From positions 1 to 29,966 of the IMG/VR virus record IMGVR_UViG_3300025128_000216: DNA of 29,966 nt, one strand, 5' to 3'. Each line of letters opens with the position of its first letter. Position 1 is the stretch's first letter. Shown piece by piece: positions 6,541-10,825 of the stretch. The notes under the pieces were generated by a model, which had not been told where the DNA came from, made no database searches, and worked only from the letters and a program-made list of their open reading frames with translations. The translations under genes were made by a program, and so were the position numbers. This DNA is from a virus.

Positions 6541-8754
6541 TTATCCCCCTACCTCGCTAAACGATACACCAGTTCGTACCGCAATAAAGTTTAATGAAAT
6601 AAAGTTGATAGAACGAGCAGGTTTGATGTATATGTCTCCAACAAACTCATTACGGTCAATAACTTCACCAGTGTTATTTGTTGCATCACATTTCACTGAG
6701 AAATCAGTAATACCTCTGCGACCTTGAACATCTCTCAAGAAAGGTTCAACTTGGTTTCTAAATTGTGCCCTTGTAAATTCATCGTTGAACTCAAAGAGTT
6801 GGTATTTAGCTGCGGTTGCAATTGCTTTTTCAAGAACCAAGAATAATCGTCTGACGTTAATACGGTCAAATGCACTTGGTTTAGTCTGTGCAGTTTTGTC
6901 ACCGAACAGAACCACGCCTTGGCCTGGGAAATTAACCACTGGATTAATTCTAGATTTATAAAGTATATCTCTATCTGGTTTTAGTGGGTTGTAAGAAAGT
7001 TTAATTGCACCCCTTACATTACCACGATTGTAACCAGCTGGTGAGAACCAAGGATCAGCAACCGTATCTGTGTTAGCACAAAGACCAGCAGTATCCCCGT
7101 TTAGTGGCACATACCGATAAACATCATTGTACTTGTCATACATATATTTGTATCCACTATCGAATACCATGTAAGATGATGATGGGCAAGTGTCAAATGC
7201 ATCTTTGACATTCTTAGTCATAGTTACATTACTTGTACCACCAACAGTTGCAGCCCGATACGGAGAAACAAATCCTACACAATCTTTACGAGTTTCGCAA
7301 AGTGCAGTAATCATTGTTACATGAGTATCATGTCCAGCAATAGTATCAGCAACAGCAGAACTTGGCCCACCTAATACTAGGTTGATATCAAGATTTTCTG
7401 TGTCCTCAAACTTATCATATGCAAGTTCTAGTTCTCCAGCAGTCACAGAATAATCATCTGTTCCACCAGTTAGTGTATCAACAGTAACTCCACTTACTAA
7501 TGTGTAGTCTGTTCCTGATGCAACATCTGTGCCCCAGTTACTACCAGCAGATAAGTGATCTGTCCAGTAAATAAATTGTGACTTACGGAAAATAACATCT
7601 GGATAATAGTTGTTATCCCCTTGTGGAGATTTTGCTTTAGTATTTTTTGACATAAAAGGAAATACTTCAAGAATTGCACTTGTTCGTTGACCAGCAACAT
7701 CAACATCATAACCAGTAAGATCACCAGTTTTGTCGTATACTGCAACGTGAAGTTCATCTTCCTCACCACGACCATTCGCAGTTGCCCAAGCAGATGTGCC
7801 TGGCGCACCATCAAATAAGTCAGAAAATCTCCAACGTCTTGTGATGTATGAGTTATCAGGAATAACTGTTTGTAGTCCAGCTCCAGCAGGGTCATCTAAC
7901 AAACGAATCGTTAGAGTTTCAGAAGAAATTGAAGTAACTTCATATTCTTGGTTGTTAGATTCTACGTTTGCATCTGTTGTAAATGCAAGAGCAACATCAT
8001 CTGCAACTGTAATTGGTTTGTCAAGTATTAATGCAGTCTGTGAAGTGACTGTTGCAATTTTAACAACCTCACCACCATCAGAAATGCCTGCACCGATTAC
8101 TCGTTGTCCAACAGCTGCAGTACCAGAGTTTCCATCAACCGTAAGGTTTTTAGTTGCAACTGTGATTGCACCATTAACAACTGCTGTAACGGAGTTGTTT
8201 GTTTGGAATGAAATAATGTCACCAACAATAATTGCAGCGTTTGATGCATCTTGGTCATCAACTGTAACTGTTAAATCACCAACTGCACCAGCACCATTCA
8301 CTAGGTTAAGTGTTCCAAGTGGTTGTGTAAATGCACGTTTACCACCGCAGATATCTACACCGATTGAGTTACCCCAAGTTCCAGCAGACCTTGCAGCCCA
8401 CTCACCATGAGAACCTTCACCACCAGCAAAACTTGCTTCGTAATGGTCATCATCACGAATAAGAATACCACTGTTTGCACCAGCGTTTAATACCGCTGAC
8501 TCTGGACGAACTATACGAAGTGCGTCAGAATACTGCAAAAAGTTTGCAGCTGTAAAGAAAAACTCGAAATTACTTGAATTTGGTTTTCCGAATATTGATA
8601 CCAGTTGTTCCTCTGAACTAATTGTAGTTACAGATGAAACTGGCCCCTTTTCAAATGGCCCTGCAATCGCACCTATTGAGGTGGATACTGCTGGGATAAC
8701 ATTTGTTAGGTCTATCTCTCTGACTTGAACGCCAGGGCTTACTAGAAATGCCAT
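6541..8754 (-). CDS. 18: Tail sheath protein gp18 with a large insertion
   Basis: Contractile sheath subunit. 737 residues against 659 in T4. The start SPGVQVREIDLTN, AGTWGNSIGV near residue 125, RRWRFSDLFDGAPGTS near 306-321, and the C-terminal core with NFPGQGVVLFGDKT, INVRRLFLVLEKAI and FVGDIYIKPARSINFI are classic gp18 features. Between about residues 145 and 265 there is a Val/Thr/Ala-rich segment including GQRVIGAGISDGGEV and ALILDKPITV that looks like an added beta domain, probably on the outer surface. AAAGGAG precedes the start and a late promoter box lies at 8808-8815. It is the first gene of the tail/head unit. Confidence 0.97.
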   Translation of the reverse strand: MAFLVSPGVQVREIDLTNVIPAVSTSIGAIAGPFEKGPVSSVTTISSEEQLVSIFGKPNSSNFEFFFTAANFLQYSDALRIVRPESAVLNAGANSGILIRDDDHYEASFAGGEGSHGEWAARSAGTWGNSIGVDICGGKRAFTQPLGTLNLVNGAGAVGDLTVTVDDQDASNAAIIVGDIISFQTNNSVTAVVNGAITVATKNLTVDGNSGTAAVGQRVIGAGISDGGEVVKIATVTSQTALILDKPITVADDVALAFTTDANVESNNQEYEVTSISSETLTIRLLDDPAGAGLQTVIPDNSYITRRWRFSDLFDGAPGTSAWATANGRGEEDELHVAVYDKTGDLTGYDVDVAGQRTSAILEVFPFMSKNTKAKSPQGDNNYYPDVIFRKSQFIYWTDHLSAGSNWGTDVASGTDYTLVSGVTVDTLTGGTDDYSVTAGELELAYDKFEDTENLDINLVLGGPSSAVADTIAGHDTHVTMITALCETRKDCVGFVSPYRAATVGGTSNVTMTKNVKDAFDTCPSSSYMVFDSGYKYMYDKYNDVYRYVPLNGDTAGLCANTDTVADPWFSPAGYNRGNVRGAIKLSYNPLKPDRDILYKSRINPVVNFPGQGVVLFGDKTAQTKPSAFDRINVRRLFLVLEKAIATAAKYQLFEFNDEFTRAQFRNQVEPFLRDVQGRRGITDFSVKCDATNNTGEVIDRNEFVGDIYIKPARSINFISLNFIAVRTGVSFSEVGG

Positions 8755-8807: not shown

Positions 8808-8815
8808 TATTTATA
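8808..8815 (-). promoter_or_regulatory. Late promoter box (TATAAATA) before gp18
   Basis: Exact minus-strand TATAAATA, 53 nt before the gp18 ATG, in the 117-bp gap between gp18 and the divergent gene at 8872. It probably starts the unit gp18-gp19-gp20 onward. Confidence 0.7.
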
Positions 8816-8858
8816 AAAAATCAGTTTCCAAAAAGTCATTTTTATAAGTGTCGTTACA

Positions 8859-8866
8859 TATAAATA
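8859..8866 (+). promoter_or_regulatory. Late promoter-like box on the plus strand before the antisense gene
   Basis: Exact TATAAATA on the plus strand, the only plus-strand copy I noticed. It ends 5 nt before the ATG at 8872, so transcription would start at or next to the start codon and give an almost leaderless message. That spacing and the AT-rich surroundings make it uncertain. Confidence 0.35.
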
Positions 8867-8871
8867 ATTTC

Positions 8872-9174
8872 ATGCCTAATAAACATTACGAAAAATATAA
8901 AGACACCATTAAAAAGGTAGCTCGTAGAAACTATCGCAAGAGAATTGTTTTACTTAATGAATTCCTTGCTGATAAGTCATGTAAACACTGTGGCGAAAGC
9001 GAAACTGTGTGTTTAAAGTTTTATCCTCACGATGCTGAAATACGAAAGATAACAAAAAGAGTTGGTGTAAATAATGAAAGTCGTAAAGAAATAATTGGAC
9101 TCATAGACCACTCTTTAATACTATGTTCAAATTGTTGGATAAAAAATGATAATGACCTAATCGAGTTTATTTAG
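8872..9174 (+). CDS. Small zinc-knuckle / degenerate HNH-like protein, antisense
   Basis: 100 residues, basic, and the only plus-strand gene seen. Cys37-x2-Cys40 (CKHCG) and Cys85-x2-Cys88 (CSNC) form a likely zinc site. Their spacing, the LKFYPHD segment between them and EIIGLIDHSLILCSNC recall small phage HNH-type proteins with the pattern CxxCG...FHHxD...CANCH. However, the catalytic HH is YP here, and the last His is Trp89, so nuclease activity is doubtful. The ATG at 8872 is preferred over a GTG at 8848, but neither has a clear ribosome binding site. The stop is 4 bp from the convergent gp17 stop. It may be a decayed mobile endonuclease or a DNA-binding regulator. Confidence 0.7.
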   Translation: MPNKHYEKYKDTIKKVARRNYRKRIVLLNEFLADKSCKHCGESETVCLKFYPHDAEIRKITKRVGVNNESRKEIIGLIDHSLILCSNCWIKNDNDLIEFI

Positions 9175-9178
9175 ACTT

Positions 9179-10825
9179 TTACCAATCTGAATCATGAGTT
9201 CTAACTACTGGACTCCAACGTGTTCCATACTCATCTACTGTTGTAGAGTCTAATGGATCGTCTACTCCATTATCTATAAAACCAAACGGAGCCATGTCTT
9301 GTTCTAACATGTCTTGTTGTTCTCGCATCATAGTCTGTCGTATGTCCATATCAGTTAGTTCTTTAAAATATGTCTGGTCTGTTGCCCATGCAAACATAAA
9401 CAAACACGCAACCAAATCATCTGTGCAACCATCGTCTGCTTCAAACGATTGACCTTTAACAATAAACGTAGACAGTTCACTAATAATCTGTAGGTCTTGA
9501 ATAATAAGTTTATCATCCTCAATCATTTGTTTAAGATTAGAACAACCTATTCGTTTTACAGCTTTAGTTGTTCTTACACCCAACTGCGCTCTACCACCTG
9601 AGAACCCCCCACCAAGTACTTGTCCTGCCCGTCCTCGCATACTTGCCATAATAAGGTTATCATACTCCAAGTCATATTGCATAGTCGAGGCGACCTGTTC
9701 TCCAATGTCATTTACTTCTATAAGAACAAATGCTTGATTGTATGCTTTTGCAACATCATATATCTTAGCAGGAAACAATAGAGGTTTTACCTCATTATCA
9801 CGAAACTTACCAACAATCTTATACGGCATTTGTGTTACATCAAACACTAGAAATGCAGAATAATCATTAGATGTTCCTCTTGAAACATCAGCTGTCATCA
9901 CATATGTGTGATCTCTCTGTGGTTTTTCAAACATATCAAATCCAGCATTAGATGTAATTGGTGGATTATAAGACATTGTTTTTAGTTTTTGTGCTTTAAT
10001 TAAGGTATCAATACTTCCTAAAAACTCACACTCAAACTCTGTGTTAAACTGTTGTTCACTAGTGTTCTTTATAGTTTCTGCTTTCCACTTTTCATCGCGG
10101 CCTGGGATTTCGCTCCAATGAACTTCTATTGGAACGTAAGTATTTCTTTGGTTCTCTGCATCATTCCACAATTTGTAAAACATATTCATACCATGAGGGG
10201 TCGATACTATCATGACTTTTGTAGTTTTACCCGAACTGATTGTTGGATATACCGAACTAAAGAATTGTTCTGCTACGTTAGAAGGAACGTATGCAAACTC
10301 ATCAAGGAAAATAATATTATATGAACCACCACGAACCGCAGATGCAGAAGTAGAACTTGCAAGAATTTTAGAACCATTTTCTAACTCCAAAGACCCCTTG
10401 TTCCAACTCATTACTCCTTGTTGCAACCACTTAGGTAGGTGTTCATATGCGAGTTGTAAGCGTCCTAGCAAGTCTCTGGCGGTCGCAGCTTTGTTAGCGA
10501 GTATCGCAACATTAACTGAAGCATTGAATAACACATAATGCAACAAATATGCTATAATGGTTGTAGATTTACCAGACTGTCTAGGAAGTTTGCAGATAGT
10601 AAAACGATTGCTGTGAAATGTGCCAACCATCTCTTTTTGAAAGTCATACATCTTAAATGGAACTAGACCTTCATCTAATGACACAATCATAATATAGTTT
10701 TCTATAAAATATTGAGGGTCATTCATACACTTAGAGTATTCTTCAACCTCTTTCTTTGTCCACTCTTGGGACACATTTGCCCGTTTGAGATTGGGATTAC
10801 CTAAGTATACTCCTTGTTCAGCCAT
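9179..10825 (-). CDS. 17: Terminase large subunit gp17 (packaging ATPase and nuclease)
   Basis: Motor that pumps DNA into the prohead and cuts the concatemer. 548 residues (T4: 610). ATPase domain: Walker A PRQSGKST at 81-88 (Lys86), Walker B IIFLDE at 171-176 with catalytic Glu176, coupling motif VSTPHG at 207-212. RNase H-like nuclease: Asp313 in TADVSRG, Glu370 in VLIEVND, and Asp469/470 in CTDDLVACL. The spacing of the first two (57) equals that of T4 Asp401/Glu458. A Gly-rich stretch around 404-412 is an extra loop relative to T4. It starts immediately after the oxygenase stop, with only a weak GGAAG upstream, so its translation may depend on coupling. Confidence 0.98.
   Translation of the reverse strand: MAEQGVYLGNPNLKRANVSQEWTKKEVEEYSKCMNDPQYFIENYIMIVSLDEGLVPFKMYDFQKEMVGTFHSNRFTICKLPRQSGKSTTIIAYLLHYVLFNASVNVAILANKAATARDLLGRLQLAYEHLPKWLQQGVMSWNKGSLELENGSKILASSTSASAVRGGSYNIIFLDEFAYVPSNVAEQFFSSVYPTISSGKTTKVMIVSTPHGMNMFYKLWNDAENQRNTYVPIEVHWSEIPGRDEKWKAETIKNTSEQQFNTEFECEFLGSIDTLIKAQKLKTMSYNPPITSNAGFDMFEKPQRDHTYVMTADVSRGTSNDYSAFLVFDVTQMPYKIVGKFRDNEVKPLLFPAKIYDVAKAYNQAFVLIEVNDIGEQVASTMQYDLEYDNLIMASMRGRAGQVLGGGFSGGRAQLGVRTTKAVKRIGCSNLKQMIEDDKLIIQDLQIISELSTFIVKGQSFEADDGCTDDLVACLFMFAWATDQTYFKELTDMDIRQTMMREQQDMLEQDMAPFGFIDNGVDDPLDSTTVDEYGTRWSPVVRTHDSDW

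Follow-up and report, generated by a model that had tools for sequence, protein, structure and literature searches.

WhiA is a domesticated, inactive relative of homing endonucleases, in which the nuclease fold was kept for DNA binding after catalysis was lost. Among phages, packaging proteins of the HK97 gp74 type are HNH-derived and encoded next to the large terminase subunit. The HNH endonucleases of PHROG 2255/3106 (S-RIM50 gp14, KIL4 gp166, crAss001 Gp8, HCTV-16 gp59) share a basic N-terminal helix, the motifs CxxCGE...L.F... and C.NC, and, across the HNH part, its general layout and length with the protein described here. In lake phages, bS21 is encoded by a small late reverse-strand gene inside the terL/structural module (PMC9723584).

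Here we describe a gene in a stretch of 29,966 nt from an IMG/VR virus record (hereafter, the window), which is part of a marine T4-like phage genome with its late module on the minus strand. The locus differs from each of these systems. HK97 gp74-type proteins are active nucleases encoded upstream of the terminase gene, whereas the window protein is predicted to be dead and is encoded downstream and on the opposite strand. The lake-phage bS21 is a ribosomal protein unrelated in sequence to the window protein. WhiA has a LAGLIDADG fold and is encoded by a bacterial chromosome gene, unlike the phage HNH-like protein of the window, which may bind nucleic acid or a late-phase partner. In contrast to the PHROG 2255/3106 endonucleases, the window gene lacks the general base and metal ligands, is fixed between gp17 and gp18, and has a late promoter fused to its ATG. 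From sequence comparison we consider it quite probable that the gene encodes a domesticated, catalytically dead HNH zinc protein, fixed at the gp17-gp18 junction, that is made late in infection and has nucleic acid or some late-phase molecule as its binding partner. Its carriers are one large group of marine T4-like phages, comprising Melnitz-type phages and relatives.

A Plus-Strand Gene Between gp18 and gp17

ORF 8872-9174 on the plus strand encodes 100 aa plus a stop codon (product, MPNKHYEKYKDTIKKVARRNYRKRIVLLNEFLADKSCKHCGESETVCLKFYPHDAEIRKITKRVGVNNESRKEIIGLIDHSLILCSNCWIKNDNDLIEFI; Table 1). The initial annotation took it for the only plus-strand gene, and it is indeed the sole credible one in the window: the remaining plus-strand ORFs of at least 80 aa in the window ORF list all overlie minus-strand genes. 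The residues that it had singled out, C37/C40, Y51-P52, and C85/C88-W89, were all confirmed in the ORF. Among isolates, the closest are the Methylophilales phages Melnitz, whose gp17 is 74% identical and whose ORF protein is 61% identical to those of the window. The Melnitz homolog (QZI94480.1) is annotated as hypothetical and occupies the equivalent position in the same orientation; in Melnitz-1 it opposes a long gene block, and the other opposing calls there are doubtful ORFs of about 96-105 nt. Published work on Melnitz and pelagimyophages, as covered by an incomplete literature search, contained no description of this gene.

TABLE 1. Coordinates of features at the gp17-gp18 locus of the window.
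Feature	Position	Strand	Basis
Nuclease-dead HNH-like zinc protein, ORF of 100 aa (predicted)	8872..9174	+	Conserved family, dN/dS, HNH profile matches
gp18 tail sheath; upstream neighbor, divergent	6541..8754	-	
gp17 terminase large subunit (TerL); downstream neighbor, convergent, 4-nt gap	9179..10825	-	
C37-x2-C40 codons, first Cys pair	8980..8991	+	Invariant in 74 distinct proteins; invariant in A4
Y51-P52 codons, in place of HNH HH/DH metal ligand and general base	9022..9027	+	Pro in 142/142; alignment with intact HNH proteins
C85-S-N-C88-W89 codons, second Cys pair; W89 replaces last metal-ligand His	9124..9138	+	His in 0/142
T4-type late promoter TATAAATA, end 5 nt before ATG of ORF 8872-9174	8859..8866	+	
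TTTTATA element, conserved, 25 nt before ATG; TATAAAA on opposite strand	8840..8846	+	
Divergent gp18 late promoter TATAAATA; octamer 53 nt before gp18 start, with Shine-Dalgarno sequence	8808..8815	-	

HNH Ancestry and the Predicted Loss of Cutting

All 22 members of a first alignment of the family matched phrog_2255 and phrog_3106 (HNH endonuclease; best E 9e-8), and in a wider set the same profiles were matched at E<0.01 by 42 and 40 of 45 members, respectively. When the family was compared by hhalign with six annotated phage or viral HNH proteins, taken from cyanophage, Bacteroides, Streptomyces, Pseudomonas, and archaeal viruses, the result was 98.2% (E 4e-14, 28% identity over 90 columns). 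The PHROG and hhalign matches bear out the HNH-like reading of the initial annotation, although Pfam and NCBIfam profile searches gave no HNH model match, and at the level of profile comparison they establish descent from the HNH endonuclease group. A sequence profile search of the PDB returned chance matches only. The intact HNH relatives in S-RIM50, KIL4, HCTV-16, and crAss001 (L151, L154, L155, and L156) lie directly upstream of a tRNA gene, and the HNH 3' end runs about 10-14 nt into the tRNA 5' end; this holds for the bacterial as well as the archaeal viruses.

An AlphaFold2 model built from the wider alignment (pLDDT 88.3, pTM 0.71) has helices at residues 4-32, 54-62, 68-79, and 86-93 and strands at 48-51 and 82-85. 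The first of these helices is basic, and residues 1-35 contain 11 K/R against 4 D/E. A Foldseek search of the PDB with the first model found nothing meaningful. Named matches among the viral models of BFVD were nearly all HNH proteins, with a weak best E of only 1.1e-3, and every one of the four PDB chains that reached a Z of 2 was an HNH nuclease (T5 SciA in two entries, Gme HNH nickase, and Cap5), with Z only 2.3-2.9. The structural evidence, including that for a beta-beta-alpha metal fold, is weak by itself and agrees with the sequence evidence for HNH ancestry.

C37, C40, C85, and C88 are invariant in the aligned sets of the family, and these two CxxC pairs, as in the Cys4 subgroup of the HNH superfamily, would bind a structural zinc. 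The alignment with the six HNH proteins sets F-Y-P in the family against F-H-H or Y-D-H, and C-x-N-C-W against C-x-N-C-H; in HNH nucleases these aligned positions are the general base and the metal ligands. The general-base position is Pro in each of the 142 distinct proteins. The first metal-ligand position is His in 20 of them, while the last (C-x2-C-H) is occupied by W, Y, F, R, E, K, and others, and by His in none; the Asn is kept in 139. The protein is predicted to be nuclease-dead because the general-base His is replaced by Pro throughout and the last metal-ligand position is never His. His53 was considered as a shifted catalytic base and rejected, as it is Asp in two clades.

A Fixed Place and Apparently Vertical Inheritance

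One profile scan of IMG/VR found 529 relatives of the ORF, far more than chance would produce. Further queries with a Melnitz-type sequence and with a third clade, first met in two metagenome bins, found 55 and 122 relatives, respectively, and a fourth clade surfaced via a gp17 query. We examined 233 copies, representing 142 distinct proteins in four clades. Every reading frame was intact at 99-108 aa, with complete ORFs of 99-101 aa in the first three clades (225 checked) and 108 aa in the fourth. Frequent stop codons in close relatives, a possibility that the initial annotation had raised, were looked for, and neither a stop nor a frameshift was seen among the 233 copies, which were chosen by similarity, such that highly divergent or badly broken ones could escape.

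The gene is antisense at the gp17-gp18 junction in every locus of the 233 copies that could be judged. Of 225 ORFs, 222 are flanked by gp18 and gp17 as expected, or lie too near the end of their contig for this to be judged; the remaining three have gp18 without a recognized gp17 match. Neither a second insertion site nor patchy presence was seen in the loci that could be judged. Comparison of the gp17-gp18 gap across relatives, as had been proposed, found the gene fixed in one carrier group and the junction empty in HTVC008M-like phages, where it spans 55-81 nt, contains nothing beyond a promoter and a Shine-Dalgarno sequence for gp18, and lacks the gene in all loci measured. Mosig and P-SSM2 likewise lack the gene. 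The initial description of the junction as otherwise conserved stands for the HTVC008M-like phages, Mosig, and P-SSM2, but not for the single-cell marine viruses AG-345-F15 and AG-345-L05, in which the junction is occupied by unrelated co-oriented genes. In these AG-345 viruses (L084 3296-3523, L085 3181-3408) the junction holds a co-oriented 75-aa gene with CRxCG...ECKxC, plus another gene. This CxxC gene was rejected as a member of the same family, since hhalign gave 19% over 23 columns and its orientation is opposite. In four other loci (L349, L350, L353, and L354) the gp17-gp18 gap is 138-152 nt; the three that were read share a stretch of TATAAATA followed by GATAC...TTTGATTATGGGCGTATGAATAATACG.

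In a gp17 tree of 69 sequences, carriers formed one group apart from L375. The carrier labels needed two changes, compared with about 18 when labels were shuffled, on a tree whose weak root does not separate gain in carriers from loss elsewhere. A tree of the ORF itself recovered the window clade, the third clade, and the fourth clade each as a group. Inheritance of the gene, judged from these trees, looks vertical. L375 was rejected as a true loss: right after the gp17 stop, the contig turns into an unrelated 454-aa reading frame. With gp17 joined directly to this transporter-like frame (1189 onwards), it is probably a chimeric assembly.

The fixed place bears on whether the protein could be a free-standing homing endonuclease that has an unusual active site and still cuts, or did so until recently. 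HNH homology would agree with this, as would the frequent position of homing endonuclease genes (HEGs) beside terminase genes (PMC10448857). We regard it as very improbable, given the invariant Pro at the general base, the Asp at neighboring position 53 in two clades, the last ligand His that is never kept, and a vertical pattern with neither patchy presence nor a second site.

Selection on the Protein

Compared with the window copy, dN/dS was 0.03-0.12 wherever dS could be computed, and the median over pairs of 55 distinct ORF sequences was 0.075. The neighboring genes gave 0.04-0.13 (gp17) and 0.14-0.26 (gp18), placing the ORF level with gp17 and below gp18. Synonymous sites are near saturation while the ORF protein is kept, and at several loci identity is 87-91% for the ORF against 74-75% for gp17. 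These comparisons demonstrate purifying selection on ORF 8872-9174, as opposed to decay. The initial annotation had offered a decayed endonuclease as one reading. Loss of the catalytic residues is what a functionless remnant would be expected to display, but the absence of broken copies, a dN/dS of about 0.07, conservation better than that of adjacent gp18, the fixed place, and the vertical pattern leave this reading with a negligible probability.

It is also conceivable that an antisense RNA against the gp17 3' end, or against a gp17-gp18 read-through transcript, is the main product and the protein secondary. The gene converges on gp17 across the 4-nt gap, where the terminator scan found none, and in L158 the third-clade ORF overlaps gp17 by 15 nt. 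Selection acts on the amino acids, however, and an Rfam search gave no match; we consider this explanation improbable. Scans for sigma70-type promoters and for terminators both gave results at chance level.

A Late-Promoter Octamer Beside the Start Codon

On the plus strand of the window, [TC]ATAAATA occurs at one site only (8859-8866), five bases before the ATG of the ORF, while the seven minus-strand sites lie 20-53 nt before the next start. Across 225 copies, the octamer (first base T, C, or A) was separated from the ATG by 5 nt in 188 copies and by 7 nt in another 34, and the other three had ACTAAATA with a 5-nt spacer. The fourth clade has TCTAAATA, also with a 5-nt spacer, and thus all clades have the octamer of T4-type late promoters or a sequence very similar to it. 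A Shine-Dalgarno-like 4-mer was found upstream of none of 224 copies of the ORF, compared with all 142 gp18 starts in the same loci. In T4, the late promoter octamer occupies -13 to -6 (PMC1524935), and therefore a 5-nt spacer puts +1 on the A of the ATG. We strongly predict a leaderless late mRNA from this analysis; the start of transcription is derived from T4 spacing, and if that spacing held strictly, the copies with a 7-nt spacer would have a leader of 2 nt.

Both a late sigma factor and a sliding clamp are encoded by Melnitz. Three Melnitz-1 genes have the 5-nt octamer spacing, and the other octamers whose downstream gene passes a simple ORF test lie at 16-62 nt, save for one intragenic match at 2 nt. 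Besides the homolog of ORF 8872-9174, the genes with the octamer exactly 5 nt before the ATG are those at 60418-61011 and 53573 of MZ577095 (L241). For 60418-61011, a baseplate-region gene, all 53 of the 53 relatives examined keep this distance, and the spacer sometimes resembles GGAG/GAGG; nine of these loci were scored "1" by the script, which stopped at an ATG within the spacer CATGT (for example, L262). It is a tentative proposal, and to us somewhat less probable than its negation, that leaderless late genes with a gp55-type promoter welded to the start codon form a small class in marine T4-like phages, one of them encoding a former homing endonuclease that is now a non-cutting regulator of the late phase or packaging, and the baseplate-region gene of Melnitz being a second member.

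Farther upstream, the distance between the end of TTTTATA and the ATG is exactly 25 nt in 98 of 113 window-clade and 47 of 55 Melnitz-clade loci, and 16 nt in 25 third-clade loci. This element could be either a -30 element or, on the opposite strand, a second gp18 promoter.

Possible Roles in the Late Phase

The initial annotation had also suggested conversion to a DNA- or RNA-binding regulator, which would be compatible with our reading. A gp55-type late sigma factor would start RNA on or beside the A of the ATG, so that the mRNA has no leader; the protein would be made late and fold around one structural zinc; and the basic N-terminal helix with the remaining zinc core would grip nucleic acid, or a protein of the late phase, but not cut. 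The most likely use of such a protein is as an accessory DNA-binding factor of the late phase, in packaging or late-gene control. These two roles are about equally likely, and any specific partner of the protein is a guess.

HEGs commonly adjoin terminase genes, and in HK97 the HNH protein cooperates with the terminase (PMC10448857); the location is therefore compatible with an ancient homing event as well as with a role in packaging. A terminase accessory factor would be a non-cutting DNA clamp on gp17 or on the packaging substrate that helps packaging. The gene adjoins gp17 in every locus that could be judged and has a late promoter before it, and the HNH protein of HK97 acts with the terminase in cos cleavage (PMC10448857; cited in PMC9611059). 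Conversely, the HK97-type function depends on HNH nuclease activity, for which the required residues are missing here, the gene is on the strand opposite gp17 and shares no operon with it, HTVC008M-like phages package without the gene, and proximity may merely mark the ancestral insertion place. In this specific form, the preferred reading of a domesticated HNH protein is rather unlikely.

The same doubt applies, to the same degree, to its other specific form, a regulator of late-phase transcription or translation such as a repressor at divergent late promoters shared with gp18. Divergent late promoters within the 117-nt gap, a conserved TTTTATA at a fixed distance, and the predicted basic helix and zinc core would suit such a role, and the lake-phage bS21, also a late small reverse-strand gene near terL, is thought to act on translation (PMC9723584). 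However, the spacing of TTTTATA varies between clades, and the family is unrelated to bS21.

Implications

Phage HNH genes are usually viewed as selfish. The widely sampled case described here appears to have lost its cutting site, stopped moving, and become a conserved resident. The gene is carried by common marine phages, including the cultured isolate Melnitz, and its role is therefore testable. A leaderless late mRNA, if true, would be uncommon as a way for T4-type phages to express a late gene, and such genes would be misjudged by gene finders that rely on ribosome-binding sites.
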